Shown here: positions 11,260-29,204 of the stretch, in pieces
How positions within the stretch are numbered: the stretch's first letter is position 1
How the letters are laid out: every line of letters starts with the position of its first letter
IMG/VR virus record: IMGVR_UViG_3300024308_000015
Location: 1 to 29,204 of that record
Length of the DNA: 29,204 bases
Reading direction: 5' to 3' (one strand)
From: a virus
Notes under the pieces: generated by a model
The model's input: only the letters and a program-made list of their open reading frames with translations
Database searches by the model: none
Told to the model about the DNA's origin: nothing
Made by a program: the position numbers and the translations under genes

Positions 11260-11269
11260 ATTCTGAATT

Positions 11270-11309
11270 CCCCGGAGTGTCCACATTGCGTCCACACTTC
11301 GGGGTTTTT
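11270..11309 (+). terminator. Intrinsic terminator after int, overlapping Int arm sites
   Basis: A 10-bp stem (CCCCGGAGTG with CACTTCGGGG, one G-T mismatch) is followed by TTTTT. It lies 10 bases after the int stop. The loop contains the first pair of GTCCACA repeats, so the same DNA appears to serve termination and Int binding. Confidence 0.75.
11278..11297. promoter_or_regulatory. Int arm-type site pair (left)
   Basis: Two direct copies of (T/C)GTCCACA start at 11278 and 11289, eleven bases apart. The reverse complement, TGTGGACA, is the P2 Int arm consensus as I recall it. Confidence 0.75.
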
Positions 11310-11369
11310 GAAACGGTTCCAGACGGTTACAGCCTTTTTTAACTTACTGTTTTTTAAAGGTGTTATATG

Positions 11370-11382
11370 TAAGTCATTGATA
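11370..11382. promoter_or_regulatory. IHF binding site in attP
   Basis: The 13 bases TAAGTCATTGATA match the reverse complement of the IHF consensus WATCAANNNNTTR at every defined position. Int systems of the P2 and HP1 type need IHF to bend attP. Confidence 0.7.
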
Positions 11383-11447
11383 AACAGTAACCATGCATTA
11401 TATTGTAAAAGCCAGCATTGCTGTTTTAATTTTAGACGCAAAACCAT

Positions 11448-11467
11448 GAAACAAAAGGATTTGTTTC
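11448..11467. repeat. Perfect inverted repeat, candidate attP core
   Basis: GAAACAAA and TTTGTTTC form 8-bp perfect arms around AGGA. It lies six bases left of the second arm-site pair. Read with 6-bp arms and an 8-bp spacer it resembles a tyrosine-recombinase crossover core, but it might instead be a Cox site or a transcript hairpin. Confidence 0.45.
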
Positions 11468-11473
11468 TAACGA

Positions 11474-11493
11474 TGTCCACACATCGTCCACAC
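11474..11493. promoter_or_regulatory. Int arm-type site pair (right)
   Basis: A second pair, TGTCCACA at 11474 and CGTCCACA at 11485, has the same orientation and the same eleven-base spacing as the left pair. Confidence 0.75.
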
Positions 11494-11513
11494 ATCGAAA
11501 TTTGACTATATCA

Positions 11514-11537
11514 GGCCCGCCTACTGCGGGCCTTTCT
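11514..11537 (+). terminator. Intrinsic terminator, rightward
   Basis: Stem GGCCCGC / GCGGGCC (7 bp) with loop CTACT, followed by TTTCTT. It is a second barrier to transcription leaving int through attP. Confidence 0.75.
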
Positions 11538-11544
11538 TATGGGT

Positions 11545-11569
11545 AAAAAAAACCAGCCTGCTGGCTGGT
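11545..11569 (-). terminator. Intrinsic terminator after the zinc-ribbon mini-gene, leftward
   Basis: On the minus strand, stem ACCAGCC / GGCTGGT is followed by a run of eight T. It lies 18 bases after the stop of the 46-residue gene and protects attP from leftward transcription. Confidence 0.8.
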
Positions 11570-11586
11570 CTTTGGTGATTCTTCGT

Positions 11587-11727
11587 TTACTCCCGGCGCT
11601 CTCGTATTGACCTGATAAACGCGTAGTGGCATTTGTCGCAACGTTCGACATCAAGCGGGAATAGTCTTTCCAGAAGCGAACGCCGGACGTTGCAGTCTCG
11701 GCAAAATTTTAAACCCAATACTTTCAT
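11587..11727 (-). CDS. 46-aa zinc-ribbon mini-protein
   Basis: This short reading frame encodes MKVLGLKFCRDC, a helical charged middle, and ERCDKCHYAFIR. Four cysteines form C9-x2-C12 and C30-x2-C33, the geometry of a single structural zinc ribbon. The ends are rich in Arg. It has its own intrinsic terminator directly downstream and a possible promoter upstream, which supports a real gene. The ribosome binding site (ACAGG) is weak. In P2 the late activator ogr sits at this point between D and attP. Here the Ogr relative is elsewhere and a shorter protein of different sequence occupies the slot. The spacing recalls small zinc-finger regulators such as Mu Com, but I claim no homology. The function is unknown; nucleic-acid binding is a guess from the fold. 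Confidence 0.7.
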   Translation of the reverse strand: MKVLGLKFCRDCNVRRSLLERLFPLDVERCDKCHYAFIRSIRERRE

Positions 11728-11756
11728 GGTGTTGGCCTGTCGTTATTTTTGCGATA

Positions 11757-11786
11757 ACCCTATGGCTTGTGCTGGCATTCGTCCAA
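11757..11786 (-). promoter_or_regulatory. Possible promoter for the zinc-ribbon mini-gene
   Basis: On the minus strand TTGGAC (11786-11781) and TAGGGT (11762-11757) are 18 bases apart, a weak sigma-70 match. It would start near 11750, about 23 bases before the ATG. Confidence 0.25.
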
Positions 11787-11797
11787 TTGCTTTTGTA

Positions 11798-11819
11798 GAT
11801 CAATTATCAGTAATTGATC
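11798..11819. repeat. Perfect inverted repeat containing two GATC sites
   Basis: GATCAATTA and TAATTGATC form 9-bp perfect arms around TCAG. Both outer ends are GATC, and a third GATC follows at 11829. The centre lies about 58 bases upstream of the possible start site for the mini-gene, where an activator site could sit. It could be a protein-binding operator. Confidence 0.7.
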
Positions 11820-12326
11820 GTCATTACCGATCAGGCGAAGCGGCAAAAGGCGCAAATAACAGACGTATTTTGCGGGCGCAGCGGCGGCCAGCAACCGCAG
11901 ATCTTTTCTCCTGTTGTGCGCGGGGTTTTGCAAAAATAAAAATATCCGCCATTGCTCGCAACTCCTTGCGCTGCAAGGCTTTCAGGCCATTCAGAGAAAA
12001 TAACCCAAACGACTGATGCGCACTTTTGATCGTGACGGAAAGTAAAACGATCCTTTTAAAAACATCATGTTAACCAATCGGTTAGGCGCTGACTGGTCGG
12101 CAACTTTTGCAAAGCGCTGCAAATCCTTGCGCGGAGTGCAAACGCCAGCAGACCGTAGAAGCCCAGCGGCGGCGCGGGCTGGCGGGTTGCTTTGCGCAAA
12201 AATTCTTTTGCAAAATTTTTATGATCCAAATACCGCAGGCGGGTGCGGTGTAGCGCCGTTTCCGTCTCGGATCCGCTTCCGTCTGCGTTCTGTCGCTTCG
12301 TCTCTGGGGCGTGGTTGAACGAATGC
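11820..12326. other. Non-coding region, candidate cos/packaging site
   Basis: No convincing gene lies here. Short open frames exist on both strands but begin at poor starts, one inside the terminator T run. In HP1, the closest model for the tail module, the cohesive ends lie between the last tail gene and attP, which is this position. Visible elements are the palindrome TTTTGCAAAA at 11926-11935 and 12206-12215, a near copy at 12105-12114, TTTGCGCAAA at 12191-12200, TAACC-AATC-GGTTA at 12071-12084, and a group of CCGTCT/CGTCT repeats at about 12258-12305. The cut site cannot be seen directly. Confidence 0.5.
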
Positions 12327-12351
12327 AAAAAAGGCCGAACGTTGTCGGCCT
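12327..12351 (-). terminator. Intrinsic terminator of the leftward late operon
   Basis: On the minus strand a 7-bp stem AGGCCGA / TCGGCCT is followed directly by six T. It lies about 70 bases after the D stop codon and closes the 17-kb late operon. Confidence 0.85.
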
Positions 12352-12420
12352 GTGATTTCTGCGCTTAATGTGGGGCGTTCTGTGGCGTCTGGTGACGTGG
12401 GGGATTTTGCCTGCTTTCTG

Positions 12421-19993: not shown

Positions 19994-20321
19994 AGTTAAC
20001 CTCAGTTCCCACACTGCCAAACTCATAGGTTTCTGCGGTGACATACAGCCGGGTAATACTTTCTTCGGTGATCACCACCGTTCCGGGGACAAGACGTTCA
20101 TCGCTTTCCACCAAAAGAGATAGCTGGGTCAGTACATCACCGCGCATTGTCGGGCTACGTTCGCCAATCAGGCGAGTGGTCACGCCACTTTCCAGAATGC
20201 TGTGAATGATGTCCTGGGCGATGCTGTCACGGTTATTGCATCGCTGCGGTTCGTTGCCGCTGTCCAGGGTAAAATCTCCGTCAGTGATCAGAAGATCGAT
20301 GTATAGCGGTTCGGTACTCAT
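19986..20321 (-). CDS. Baseplate protein, DUF2590-like (gpW/gp25 analogue)
   Basis: This 111-residue protein fits the small HP1-type DUF2590 family (LYIDLLITDGDFTLDSGNEPQRCNNRDSIAQDIIHSILESG). It sits between the tape measure and the J-like protein, where P2 has the gp25-like wedge protein gpW. The segment DSIAQDIIHSILESGVTTRLIGERSP parallels the gp25 fold in having an early helix and a conserved Arg-containing turn. Its ATG overlaps the tape-measure stop and its own stop overlaps the J start. The wedge role is inferred from position and length. Confidence 0.78.
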   Translation of the reverse strand: MSTEPLYIDLLITDGDFTLDSGNEPQRCNNRDSIAQDIIHSILESGVTTRLIGERSPTMRGDVLTQLSLLVESDERLVPGTVVITEESITRLYVTAETYEFGSVGTEVNYD

Positions 20322-22519
20322 CCGGCGTTAAGCTCCTGCCATTCGGCCAACTGGGCCGGGGTAATTCCATTCGGGGCGTTAATGTAAGTGTCGCCCCACG
20401 TCTTACGGCTATCCACAACGGTCTTATTGTCGGATTTCACCTGGCTTATCAGGCCTCCGCGTGGGATATCTGCATTAATTTTGTTACCCGTCAGCAATGA
20501 CGGGGCATTCAGCGCTGGCGGCTCTGCAGCACGATCAGTAATAACGGTGTGTGCCGGTATTTCAGTGACAGCAGGGACCATCCCGGCGCCTGGGGGTAAT
20601 GCGGTTGGTGCAACCCCGGCTCCGGCTGGCAACTTCACCCCTGCGGGATCTACTCCTGGCGGCTGCGCCGTAGTTTTGAGATCGATATTGACCCCGGGGA
20701 TTTTGTTTAACTTCTCGGCAATCCAGTTATAGGTGGATGCAAACGTATTTTTCAGGGTATCGAAAAGTTTTCTGAACACGCCGCCGATGGTTTCCGCAAA
20801 CCCTTCAAAAGAGGCCAGCGGTGACAGGCCAGCAAAGAACGCAACCACCACGGCCCAGCCGTCAGTGATGGATTGCCAGACGCTGGAAAATACCTGGCCG
20901 ACCTGCGCGGCAACGCTCATCACCCAGGAAAAGGCCTCAGTATTCATCACTGCCGCTTTCAGTTCTTCCCAGTGGGTTACGACGTACCACACCCCAGCGG
21001 CCAGCAGGGCCAGCGCGGCAATGATCAGCGTTATGGGACTGGTCAGCAGTTGCATTGCCACACCGGCAAACGTGGTTGCCACGGCATACACACGCATGGC
21101 AACGGCTCCGGCTTTCAGTGCGATGTTCCAGGCGGCCAGCGCAACGCGGCAAACTCCCGTCCAAAGGGCTAACAGTTTTGACTGGATCCACAGCGCGGCC
21201 AGACCAATGCGGGTCGTCAGCAATGACGGGCGCAGTATGTTCAGCGTCCATAACAGGCCTTTCCAGGCACTATTCAGGACTTTCGCAATTCCGCTCAGGC
21301 CTGTCATAGTGAATCCGAAGATGCCCATCACAATGTTAGTGGCCGCACCTGCCAGACCGAAAGACAACACGCCCAGGGTGATGTAACCCAGCCAGCGGGC
21401 AATGTTGGGGAACATTTCCAGCCAGCGGGCAAACTTCGCCCCCACGTCGGCAACGCGGTTCATCATTGGCGTCAGTATCGGGATCAGCGTATTGCCCAGG
21501 GCCACGCGCATGGCGTAAAACGTCGCGACGATACGTTCCCACGGTTTCGCCATACGTTCGGCCATTTCCTGGGCGCGTTTCATGCCGTCATTGCGCCCCA
21601 GCTCTGTGATGCTGCGGTTCAGGGTGTTTTGCTGGCCGTACAGTTTTTTGATGACATCAGCGCCACCACCAAAAGCCGCGTCCAGTGCCTGCTGGGCCTT
21701 TACGTTCCCTTCAATGCTTGCCCCGTATTTATCTTGTAGCTTTTGCAGAATATCGCCCATTGGCAGCATTTTGCCGGTCGCATCAACAAAGCTCATGCCC
21801 AGCTTTTCAGCCGCTGCCGGTGCGCTTCGCAAAAACTGCTCGTAAATGCCGCTGGACTCTGTGCCCAGGGTGCGCGAAAGCGTACCCAGCACCGCGAACT
21901 GTTCATCCATGCTGACGCCAAAATCAGCACCGGCGTTTTTGGTGCCCTCAATAAGCTCCTGCATGGTCTGCATTTTCACGCCGAAGTTTTGCACCATGTA
22001 GGCCGTTTTCCCGGCCAGTTCTTCGGCAAACCTGACATTGCCCAGGCTGGACAATTCCGCGTTGAAGCGGGATGCCATCGCGCCGATATATTCACCCGCT
22101 TCCTCGCCGCTGGCTTTTACACCTGCCGCCAGGGTGTTGGCCGCCACTGTCACGCGTGGCAAGTCGGCATCAGAGAGGCCAGCCATTGCGCCTTTCATCG
22201 CATAGCTGGAATTCACCACATCAACCGCGCTTTTGCCGTAGCGAACACTGAATTTCAGGGCCTCGCTGGAAAGTCGCTTGAGCGTGTCTTCTGCCACGCC
22301 TTTGGCCCCCACTTCCGAAAGCGCAGCATTCATTTCATACGCGGGGCCAACCACGCCCGCGATGGACTGGGCAACACCCCATACCGCCGCCGCACCGATA
22401 CCGATTTTTGCAAAAGACGCCTGCGATTTTTCGGCAAAGCCAGTCAGCGAAGACTGGGCCGTTTTTAATGGCCGCGTCAGCTTATCAATCAGGCTCAGCG
22501 TAAAATCCAGGTGGCTCAT
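20318..22519 (-). CDS. T: Tail tape measure protein (gpT-like)
   Basis: This 733-residue protein sets tail length and passes through the tail tube. The N-terminus (SLIDKLTRPLKTAQSSLTGFAEKSQ) and the segment ALSEVGAKGVAEDTLKRLSSEALKFSVRYGKSAVDVVNSSYAMKGAMAGL are typical of the phage tape-measure core domain. Hydrophobic segments lie in the middle (LGYITLGVLSFGLAGAATNIVMGIF near 380; SPITLIIAALALLAAGVWYVV near 500). The C-terminal third is Pro-rich. It begins two bases after the frameshifted chaperone stop (ATG at 22519). It is somewhat shorter than P2 gpT (815). Confidence 0.93.
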   Translation of the reverse strand: MSHLDFTLSLIDKLTRPLKTAQSSLTGFAEKSQASFAKIGIGAAAVWGVAQSIAGVVGPAYEMNAALSEVGAKGVAEDTLKRLSSEALKFSVRYGKSAVDVVNSSYAMKGAMAGLSDADLPRVTVAANTLAAGVKASGEEAGEYIGAMASRFNAELSSLGNVRFAEELAGKTAYMVQNFGVKMQTMQELIEGTKNAGADFGVSMDEQFAVLGTLSRTLGTESSGIYEQFLRSAPAAAEKLGMSFVDATGKMLPMGDILQKLQDKYGASIEGNVKAQQALDAAFGGGADVIKKLYGQQNTLNRSITELGRNDGMKRAQEMAERMAKPWERIVATFYAMRVALGNTLIPILTPMMNRVADVGAKFARWLEMFPNIARWLGYITLGVLSFGLAGAATNIVMGIFGFTMTGLSGIAKVLNSAWKGLLWTLNILRPSLLTTRIGLAALWIQSKLLALWTGVCRVALAAWNIALKAGAVAMRVYAVATTFAGVAMQLLTSPITLIIAALALLAAGVWYVVTHWEELKAAVMNTEAFSWVMSVAAQVGQVFSSVWQSITDGWAVVVAFFAGLSPLASFEGFAETIGGVFRKLFDTLKNTFASTYNWIAEKLNKIPGVNIDLKTTAQPPGVDPAGVKLPAGAGVAPTALPPGAGMVPAVTEIPAHTVITDRAAEPPALNAPSLLTGNKINADIPRGGLISQVKSDNKTVVDSRKTWGDTYINAPNGITPAQLAEWQELNAG

Positions 22520-22520
22520 A

Positions 22521-22978
22521 TCAGTTTCCGTTTAGTGCAATGGCGATACCTTCCGCCGTTTTATTCGCCCTGGTTTTGGCGAAATACTCATCCAGCCACA
22601 GGGCGCGGGCGATGCTTTCTTCGTCGTCAGGTTCATGCGGGAGGTAGTAGCGGCGCAGGGCAAGGTATTGCTCCAGCCCGTTCGTGCGTATGGCCGCCAC
22701 CCGCGCCGCTAGTTTTTTACTTCGATCTCAAGTTTCGGTGAGTAAATCTCGTTGACCTTCTCGACGATCTGCATTTCACAGCCTGGGTAATCTTCCATCA
22801 GCTTGTTTAATGCCTCTTTTGATTCGGCATCAACAATGCGCCCCAGGTAGGTCGCCATAGGCGCAACCTTATTGGTCATGGTCATTTCGTTAATCAGGTT
22901 GTTGTAGGCGGTTTTGTTTGGCTCAAAGCTCAGGCCCACACCCGCCACGGTCATGACAATTTTTTTAGACTTGCTCAT
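22521..22978 (-). CDS. E+E': Tail assembly chaperone, -1 frameshift product (gpE-E'-like)
   Basis: A ribosome slipping back one base at A AAA AAC (22718-22712) continues for 63 codons to a TGA at 22523-22521, two bases before the tape-measure ATG. The fusion is 152 residues. The extension has a charged, helical sequence (LAARVAAIRTNGLEQYLALRRYYLPHEPDDEESIARALWLDEYFAK) with normal codon character, no stop codon, and no start codon of its own in a useful position. The P2 E/E' and lambda G/GT pairs work the same way. The coordinates span one joined reading: 22978..22712 in frame 0, then 22712..22521 in frame -1. Confidence 0.85.
22709..22978 (-). CDS. E: Tail assembly chaperone, short form (gpE-like)
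   Basis: This 89-residue zero-frame protein (MSKSKKIVMTVAGVGLSFEPNKTAYNNLINEMTMTNKVAPMATYL) is the short tail assembly chaperone of the P2 E / HP1 type. It ends at a TAG placed directly after a -1 slippery heptamer, so a fraction of ribosomes should read on into the extension listed separately. The start has AAAGGAAGT upstream and overlaps the Rz1 stop (ATGA). It lies before the tape measure, the universal position of this chaperone pair. Confidence 0.87.
   Translation of the reverse strand: MSKSKKIVMTVAGVGLSFEPNKTAYNNLINEMTMTNKVAPMATYLGRIVDAESKEALNKLMEDYPGCEMQIVEKVNEIYSPKLEIEVKN
22712..22718 (-). promoter_or_regulatory. Programmed -1 ribosomal frameshift site
   Basis: Zero-frame codons GTA AAA AAC TAG contain the canonical heptamer A AAA AAC directly before the stop. 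Downstream GC-rich sequence (GGCGCGGGTGGCGGCC) could form a stimulatory structure. Confidence 0.85.
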
Positions 22979-23271
22979 TTTGTTACTTCCTTTCGTTGTC
23001 GAATGATGCCCACCAGGGCGTTATGTCGTGCGGCGCATTCGGCGTAGATTTGCCGATAAGCGGTTAATGCCGCGTCAAAATCATTGCCTGTCGGCCCTGC
23101 CAGCCTCGGCAGGTTTACCGGGCAAAGGGTTAGCTGGTTTTCCTGATAGGGTTCGCTCGATGCTGGCCGCCAGTTCGTTGAACAACCGGACGTAATCATC
23201 AGAAGCACACACATTGTTAAAAACCGGCTTAATGGTTTCGGTACGGATAACCCGTTCGGTGTGGATCTCAT
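22975..23271 (-). CDS. lysC: Outer-membrane spanin lipoprotein (Rz1/LysC-like)
   Basis: This 98-residue reading frame is embedded out of frame in the 3' part of Rz, the hallmark of spanin pairs. It has a basic N-terminus, a hydrophobic segment (FLTMCVLLMITSGC) and a lipobox-like ITSGC with Cys30 as the lipidation site. The mature part is Pro-containing (STNWRPASSEPYQENQLTLCPVNLPRLAGP). The ATG at 23271 has GGAG about ten bases upstream within Rz. Together with Rz it fuses inner and outer membranes in the last step of lysis. Confidence 0.83.
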   Translation of the reverse strand: MRSTPNGLSVPKPLSRFLTMCVLLMITSGCSTNWRPASSEPYQENQLTLCPVNLPRLAGPTGNDFDAALTAYRQIYAECAARHNALVGIIRQRKEVTK

Positions 23272-23464
23272 TGGCTTTTAACTCCGCGAGTTTCTTTTCC
23301 AGCGCTTCGCCGGACTGCCGCGTTACCTCCACGACAATCTGGCGCGTTTCCTCTGTCGCCTTACTGGCGGCCAGTTCAAGCTTTGCGTTGTGCCAGTCGT
23401 GCGCCTGCCAGCCTGCTGACATTGCAGCAGTCAGGATCAGGACCAACCCCAGCAAGTTACGCAT
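23081..23464 (-). CDS. lysB: Inner-membrane spanin (Rz/LysB-like)
   Basis: This 127-residue protein has an N-terminal signal anchor (MRNLLGLVLILTAAMSAGW) followed by a long charged coiled-coil segment (KLELAASKATEETRQIVVEVTRQSGEALEKKLAELKANEI), as expected for an i-spanin. The C-terminal part has DDYVRLFNELAASIERTLSG, common in P2 LysB relatives. It starts at the stop of the endolysin gene, and Rz1 overlaps its 3' half in another frame. Confidence 0.85.
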   Translation of the reverse strand: MRNLLGLVLILTAAMSAGWQAHDWHNAKLELAASKATEETRQIVVEVTRQSGEALEKKLAELKANEIHTERVIRTETIKPVFNNVCASDDYVRLFNELAASIERTLSGKPANPLPGKPAEAGRADRQ

Positions 23465-28157: not shown

Positions 28158-29180
28158 TTATTCGCCCCCGCCCGGTGCTGGCTCGTCAGTTGCCAGGGTA
28201 ATTTTGTCGTAGGCGGCGTAAAGCTCGTCATGTTCGACGGCGTAGCCTTCCATGCGCAGATAATTATTTTCAAAGCGCTTGCGGTCGTCGTTCCATTCGG
28301 CTTTACGCTTACGGGTTCCCTGCTGGGTGTAAATGTGCAGGTTGTCCAGCGTGGTGACGATGAGGCGACCAGACGGCATAAACGGCGGGGTGTACACGGT
28401 ACGGCCAGCGATCTGACGGCCAATCAACTGCGCGGCGACTTTCTCAGTCGGGCGATCAATCTTATTCATCAGCGTGGTGACGTCTGCGCCGATAAGGTCA
28501 GCGGATGCCAGCACAACCAGACGCGGGTCATTGCGATAAGGCTCATAAATGCAGGTATGCACCAGATCGGTGACCGCTGCGTCCAGCCCCATGAAATCAG
28601 CATTCGCGCCGCCGATAGTGACGTCGCCGGTGATGATTTGTTCGGCTGAACGGTCCTTAACAATTTTATGCCAGCCGATGTTAACGTCTTCACCGTTCGG
28701 GTTAGCTTCCGGGTCGGTGTTTTCTGCAACTTCTACACCGTTGAACGCCACGCGCAGCATATCCAGTGCAAATTGTTCATTGCTGTTCGCCTGGATACGC
28801 TGGAAGAACTCGTCTTCACTGCCCGCGTTAGCCCAGGTCACAAGCATGGAATATGACAAATAAGAACCGGAATCCGTTTCGGCCAGCTTATATTCGTTTC
28901 CGCCCACGCCCATCGCACGCGAGAAGCGACCATCTTTTTTGCGGCCCGTGTAGATACCCACCTGGCCGGTGGTTACCACCTGCCCGGTGATCTGGTCCAC
29001 GTCCAGCACGTTAGGCAGCAGGCGCAGGAATTCAGAACTTGCCAGCAGCGCGTCACGCAACTGGGTTTCTTTCGGTGGTGTCAGCGAGAAGAATCGCGAC
29101 GTATCCGGCTGGCCGTTGGCTTTCGCCAGGCCTGCGGCGTACTTACGCAACATCTGCTCTGCTTTTGGGGTTAATTGCAT
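28158..29180 (-). CDS. N: Major capsid protein (gpN-like)
   Basis: This 340-residue protein is the P2-type major capsid precursor (P2 gpN: 357). Family stretches include LTPPKETQLRDALLASSEFLRLLPNVLDVDQITGQVV near the N-terminus, IQANSNEQFALDMLRVAFNGVEVAENTDPEANPNGEDVNIGWHKIVKD in the middle and LIGRQIAGRTVYTPPFMPSGRLIVTTLDNLHIYTQQGTRKRKAEW near 270. In P2 the N-terminal ~31 residues are removed by gpO. The start lies inside the 127-base assembly overlap, and in the circle it follows gene O by 28 bases. Confidence 0.94.
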   Translation of the reverse strand: MQLTPKAEQMLRKYAAGLAKANGQPDTSRFFSLTPPKETQLRDALLASSEFLRLLPNVLDVDQITGQVVTTGQVGIYTGRKKDGRFSRAMGVGGNEYKLAETDSGSYLSYSMLVTWANAGSEDEFFQRIQANSNEQFALDMLRVAFNGVEVAENTDPEANPNGEDVNIGWHKIVKDRSAEQIITGDVTIGGANADFMGLDAAVTDLVHTCIYEPYRNDPRLVVLASADLIGADVTTLMNKIDRPTEKVAAQLIGRQIAGRTVYTPPFMPSGRLIVTTLDNLHIYTQQGTRKRKAEWNDDRKRFENNYLRMEGYAVEHDELYAAYDKITLATDEPAPGGGE

Positions 29181-29204
29181 TTCGTTTTATCCCTGGAAAG
29201 AAAA
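29078..29204. repeat. Right copy of 127-bp terminal overlap
   Basis: Identical to bases 1-127. Removing one copy gives a circle of about 29,077 bp and restores an uninterrupted O-N junction. Confidence 0.93.

Follow-up and report, generated by a model that had tools for sequence, protein, structure and literature searches.

A conserved slip site beside the stop codon of a tail assembly chaperone gene points to programmed -1 frameshifting in HP1/K139-type phages

Does the short chaperone gene that lies just upstream of the tape measure gene in this virus encode one protein, or is it also read past its stop codon, by a -1 ribosomal frameshift, into a longer one? The window analysed here is a virus record of 29,204 bases, in which the chaperone, extension and tape measure genes all lie on the minus strand. 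The zero-frame gene, an E-like tail assembly chaperone of 89 aa (22709..22978, -), ends GAA GTA AAA AAC TAG, so that the heptamer A AAA AAC (22712..22718, -) directly adjoins the TAG stop (22709..22711, -) and has the X XXY YYZ phase (..GTA AAA AAC) that tandem -1 slippage needs. The E'-like extension is an open -1 frame of 63 codons plus a TGA at 22523-22521 (22521..22712, -), which has base 22712 in common with the slip site; its first codon after a -1 slip is CTA, and it reads LAARVAAIRTNGL...NGN. The tail tape measure gene (20318..22519, -; Pfam PhageMin_Tail 3e-19, TIGR01760 4e-16) follows, and its product is the expected client of the chaperone. The initial annotation had placed the heptamer directly before the chaperone stop, without giving the strand, followed by 63 open codons in the -1 frame and a product of 152 residues; the sequence bears out all three (89 + 63 = 152). 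The two bases that it counted between the extension and the tape measure start are in fact one, as the TGA ends at 22521 and the ATG lies at 22519. Beyond the TAG, the next zero-frame stop of the window is 59 codons downstream. The genes of the window hold 20 heptamers that fit X XXY YYZ in phase and have A or T as Y, and only the one at 22718-22712 adjoins a stop. As the heptamer, the stop position and the -1 frame are also conserved, the layout of the slip site is not due to chance.

On its gene content, the window is an HP1/K139-type Peduoviridae genome. Profile matches identify a P2-family capsid gene (TIGR01551) and a PBSX-type portal gene, and further HP1/K139-type matches include the GPO scaffold, an HP1 Orf24-type protein, DUF2586 and the HP1 ORF34 baseplate protein. 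The capsid and scaffold genes sit at opposite ends of the record (1-1193 and 28158-29204), as expected if the phage genome is circularly permuted, which it appears to be. The nearest named relatives are Salmonella phages SI7, SW3 and SW5, with 87.6% DNA identity over the region, and Enterobacter sp. RIT418 carries the chaperone at 97% identity. By comparison with the SI7 annotation, a lysis cassette (holin-like, endolysin-like and Rz/Rz1-like genes) separates the chaperone gene from the HP1 Orf24-type gene, which we take from its position to be the tail tube gene. The Rz1-like lipoprotein ORF (22975-23271, -; lipobox-like ITSGC), which is unannotated in SI7, overlaps the Rz-like ORF (23081-23464) in another frame, and its stop overlaps the chaperone start (ATGA); its match to LysC is weak (0.0077, below the cut-off). 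Elsewhere, about 1.1 kb past the integrase is without a clear gene (11260-12420; relatives match it only in part, SI7 over 54% of the stretch at 78%), and within it lies a 46-codon CxxC...CxxC ORF (11727-11587, -) with sub-threshold Pfam matches only. An Rfam search of the window gave zero matches.

The arrangement is widely conserved. By tblastn over phage records, the chaperone was found in 64 and the extension in 67, with hosts from Salmonella to Vibrio and Haemophilus and including E. coli and Aeromonas; overall, the relatives span at least ten host genera. Two sets of loci were compared, one of 50 loci (the window, 18 named phages and 31 IMG/VR contigs) and one of 79 readable IMG/VR loci, with 26 contigs common to both. 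A slip heptamer (A AAA AAC or A AAA AAA) adjoins the zero-frame stop, which may be TAG, TGA or TAA, in 50/50 loci of the first set and 78/79 of the second, and all 18 named-phage loci have the extension in the -1 frame. The initial annotation had let its reading depend on conservation of the -1 frame in relatives, and the -1 relation is kept in the same 50/50 and 78/79 loci. The run is of six As, or of seven (A AAA AAA) in several Vibrio, Salinivibrio and Pseudoalteromonas phages. NTA-AAA-AA(C/A)-stop occurs in 21/21 diverged lineages, and the codon before AAA is always NTA where the heptamer is intact, while GTA accounts for only 31 of the 189 Val codons elsewhere in these genes; the lineages are related, hence no formal probability is assigned to this conservation. 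The lone exception, L131, is one A short in its slip site (five As, around 1495-1504), which appears to reflect decay or a sequencing error. The chaperone frame of L131 appears broken, and in L130, its sister in one and the same IMG/VR genome, the six As are intact.

The extension evolves as a protein in the -1 frame only. The window's clade gives median dN/dS values of 0.06 for the chaperone and, for the extension, 0.14 in its -1 frame, against 1.65 and 2.25 in the other two frames. Homology in the extension starts at its first codon, upstream of any usable start codon. Both halves belong to known families: the chaperone matches Pfam PF10963, Phage_TAC_10 (E=8.2e-32; 109.7 bits against a curated cut-off of 25.7), and the extension matches PF21830, DUF6890, over residues 19-62 (E=8.4e-21; 73.9 bits against 23.6) as well as phrog_7050 (E=3.9e-24), a family annotated as of unknown function. 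The PF21830 and phrog_7050 models begin at about residue 16-19 of the extension and leave out its first conserved part (residues 19-63 correspond to 22524-22658, -, in the window), probably because internal start codons had been used in calling the proteins from which they were built.

AlphaFold models were made of the chaperone and the extension as separate chains. Foldseek pairs the chaperone model (pLDDT 91.6) at a probability of ~1.0 with predicted structures of annotated tail assembly chaperones from Gordonia, Halobacterium and other phages, and also pairs it with PDB 3fgx (TM 0.74), at E-values that are modest (1e-3 to 6e-2); the modelled fold of the 89-aa protein thus matches known tail assembly chaperones. 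The 3fgx entry is RBSTP2171, an uncharacterised protein of Bacillus stearothermophilus, whose sequence match to the chaperone is weak (0.027) and which is possibly a prophage tail assembly chaperone itself. The extension is modelled as helical (pLDDT 93.2); a fold search with this model returned nothing under E=1, and a PDB profile search with the extension returned no meaningful matches.

To assess RNA structure around the slip site, 45-nt windows from the 21 lineages were compared with synonymous shuffles. Between -5 and +10 nt of the slip-site end, the mean fold z-score falls to values of -1.4 to -1.6 (-1.5 to -1.6 immediately past the site), against roughly 0 to -0.7 over most of the gene. 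Clear hairpins are predicted 6-9 nt past the heptamer in several relatives, e.g. yong1, canoe, ESSI-2, ev015 and ev239, and in the window's clade a long GC-rich stem is predicted from 2-3 nt past it, with z-scores of about 0 to -3.2 that vary with the member and the window length (-0.8 to -2.3 for the window itself). In the window, this possible stimulatory stem-loop starts 2 nt past the heptamer (22650..22709, -) and has a predicted energy of -28 kcal/mol. RNAalifold gave zero pairs for a covarying stem common to the 21 lineages. The structural signal is weak in the window's clade and stronger in relatives; a stimulatory RNA element in the window's phage is therefore plausible but unproved.

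To place the locus among known systems, we compared it with other genes that use -1 frameshifting. The HP1/HP2/K139/F108/phiO18P/ESSI-2-type Peduoviridae (e.g. HP1 orf26) have a homologous chaperone and extension, the same heptamer (A AAA AAA in some Vibrio-type members), an adjoining stop and a site upstream of the tape measure gene, and do not differ essentially from the window. P2 resembles it in that E/E+E', annotated as a join with a frameshift site, lies just upstream of the tape measure gene and gains an extension of similar size by a -1 shift, but the slip site of P2 is T TTT TTG, and its zero-frame stop lies well beyond that site. Furthermore, P2 E belongs to Pfam Phage_TAC_7 and E' to Phage_P2_GpE, whereas the halves in the window belong to Phage_TAC_10 and DUF6890. 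When these halves were aligned by hhalign with P2 E and E', as single sequences since a scan for P2 relatives gave near-identical copies, no relationship was detected (E 0.24 for E' and 0.32 for E, probability under 1%), and homology to P2 E or E' was rejected on this lack of profile similarity to the single P2 sequences and on the different Pfam families. Thus, the likeness to P2 E/E' and lambda G/GT drawn in the initial annotation is sound for the position and mechanism of P2 E/E' and for the -1 shift in both systems, and does not extend to a detectable sequence relationship with P2. The alignment that it proposed with E' parts of P2/HP1/K139-type phages yields homologues of HP1/K139 type, and with the single P2 sequences none could be detected. 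Lambda gpG/gpGT is likewise a tail assembly chaperone with a -1 frameshift extension, but in a siphophage and on a different slip site, G GGA AAG. The lambda extension is made by a minority -1 shift, at about 30:1, and is crucial for tail assembly (PMC5009743). IS elements that use A_AAA_AAC in E. coli have the same heptamer as the window, in genes of transposable elements, where it serves transposases, rather than in tail chaperones. A proven A_AAA_AAC frameshift cluster is reported among IS elements (PMC4066793).

The fusion could also be made at the level of the transcript, if RNA polymerase added an A within the A run so that some mRNAs encode the fusion in one frame. The site does consist of six consecutive As, and of seven in several of the Vibrio, Salinivibrio and Pseudoalteromonas phages, and in E. 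coli possible slippage of transcription has been tied to A7 runs (PMC4066793). However, the run is kept at six or seven As, in exact codon phase and never longer, in lineages with intact genes, and the excess mRNA structure downstream fits ribosomal slippage better. Efficient slippage by bacterial RNA polymerase usually requires about nine As or Ts. We regard transcriptional slippage at this site as very unlikely. Another route would be expression of the extension as a separate small gene by re-initiation or coupling, for example from the GTG at codon 5 or a TTG at codon 19, and such ORFs do occur in public annotation (SI7 gp15 from codon 5; a PGAP 'DUF6890 family protein' of 45 aa). Yet no start position is conserved, five of the 21 lineages have no ATG, GTG or TTG in the first 25 codons, and none of the candidate starts has a Shine-Dalgarno core; an own start codon for the extension was rejected on these grounds. 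A separate gene would also leave the conserved residues 1-18 and the heptamer unexplained, which makes it highly improbable. That the extension is an unexpressed, accidental open frame is barely conceivable; the -1 frame alone is under purifying selection and is retained across at least ten host genera, both of which contradict this reading.

Programmed -1 frameshifting that makes a short and an extended tail assembly chaperone is strongly supported, by the conservation of the -1 frame and the slip site, by purifying selection in the -1 frame only, by RNA structure in the relatives and by the chaperone fold; from these comparisons, we put its probability at about 0.93. We infer that slippage occurs, how frequent it is and what each product does. 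Most ribosomes would reach the UAG and release the 89-residue chaperone, while with tRNA-Lys and tRNA-Asn on A AAA AAC a minority would slip back one base, bypass the stop and go on to a chaperone of 152 residues, the last 63 of which would form a C-terminal domain. If lambda gpG/gpGT is a guide, the short product may coat the tape measure protein, while the extension may recruit tail tube subunits. The efficiency of the shift may be low, since in E. coli A_AAA_AAC is reported to shift far less readily than A_AAA_AAG (PMC5009743). The adjoining stop has precedent in some dnaX genes, where a stop lies directly past the shift site (PMC5009743). Its conservation could reflect a mechanistic role, or it could merely spare the short product unneeded residues. 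The suggestion in the initial annotation that the adjoining stop and the GC-rich sequence past it set the product ratio is weaker than the case for the frameshift: the stop is conserved, but the downstream fold of the window is only modestly stronger than in its synonymous shuffles. A more specific idea seems doubtful: in this clade, a stop codon waiting in the A site (UGA followed by C in many enterobacterial and Aeromonas members) would favour slippage of the tRNAs behind it, and the speed of termination would tune the ratio of the two chaperones.

The public records examined do not reflect this arrangement. In the records of 18 relatives and in one E. coli genome, the join is unannotated, and the extension is either missing or given as a truncated separate gene ('hypothetical' or 'DUF6890'); close copies are found in 18 of 5426 complete E. 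coli genomes. The initial annotation expected automatic annotation to miss the extension because it has no start of its own, which is right for the join and the full extension, but the in-frame GTG at codon 5 can be called, as in Salmonella phage SI7, where a short ORF is annotated from there. A search of the accessible literature found no paper on a frameshift in HP1, K139 or phiO18P, and a prior description in HP1-type phages is possible. The 2004 paper by Xu et al. in Mol Cell (16:11) reportedly names 28 phages that use frameshifts of this kind. The mechanism is a textbook one; the locus is a newly documented HP1-type example, for which we claim no priority. For DUF6890/phrog_7050, so far a family of unknown function, a role can be suggested: most likely it represents the part of the HP1-type tail assembly chaperone that the frameshift encodes. 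Its members are usually annotated with a wrong start or left unannotated, and a correction would mend many prophage annotations. Finally, the conserved slip-plus-stop layout, together with lineage-specific hairpins, offers a natural series for probing what sets frameshift efficiency.
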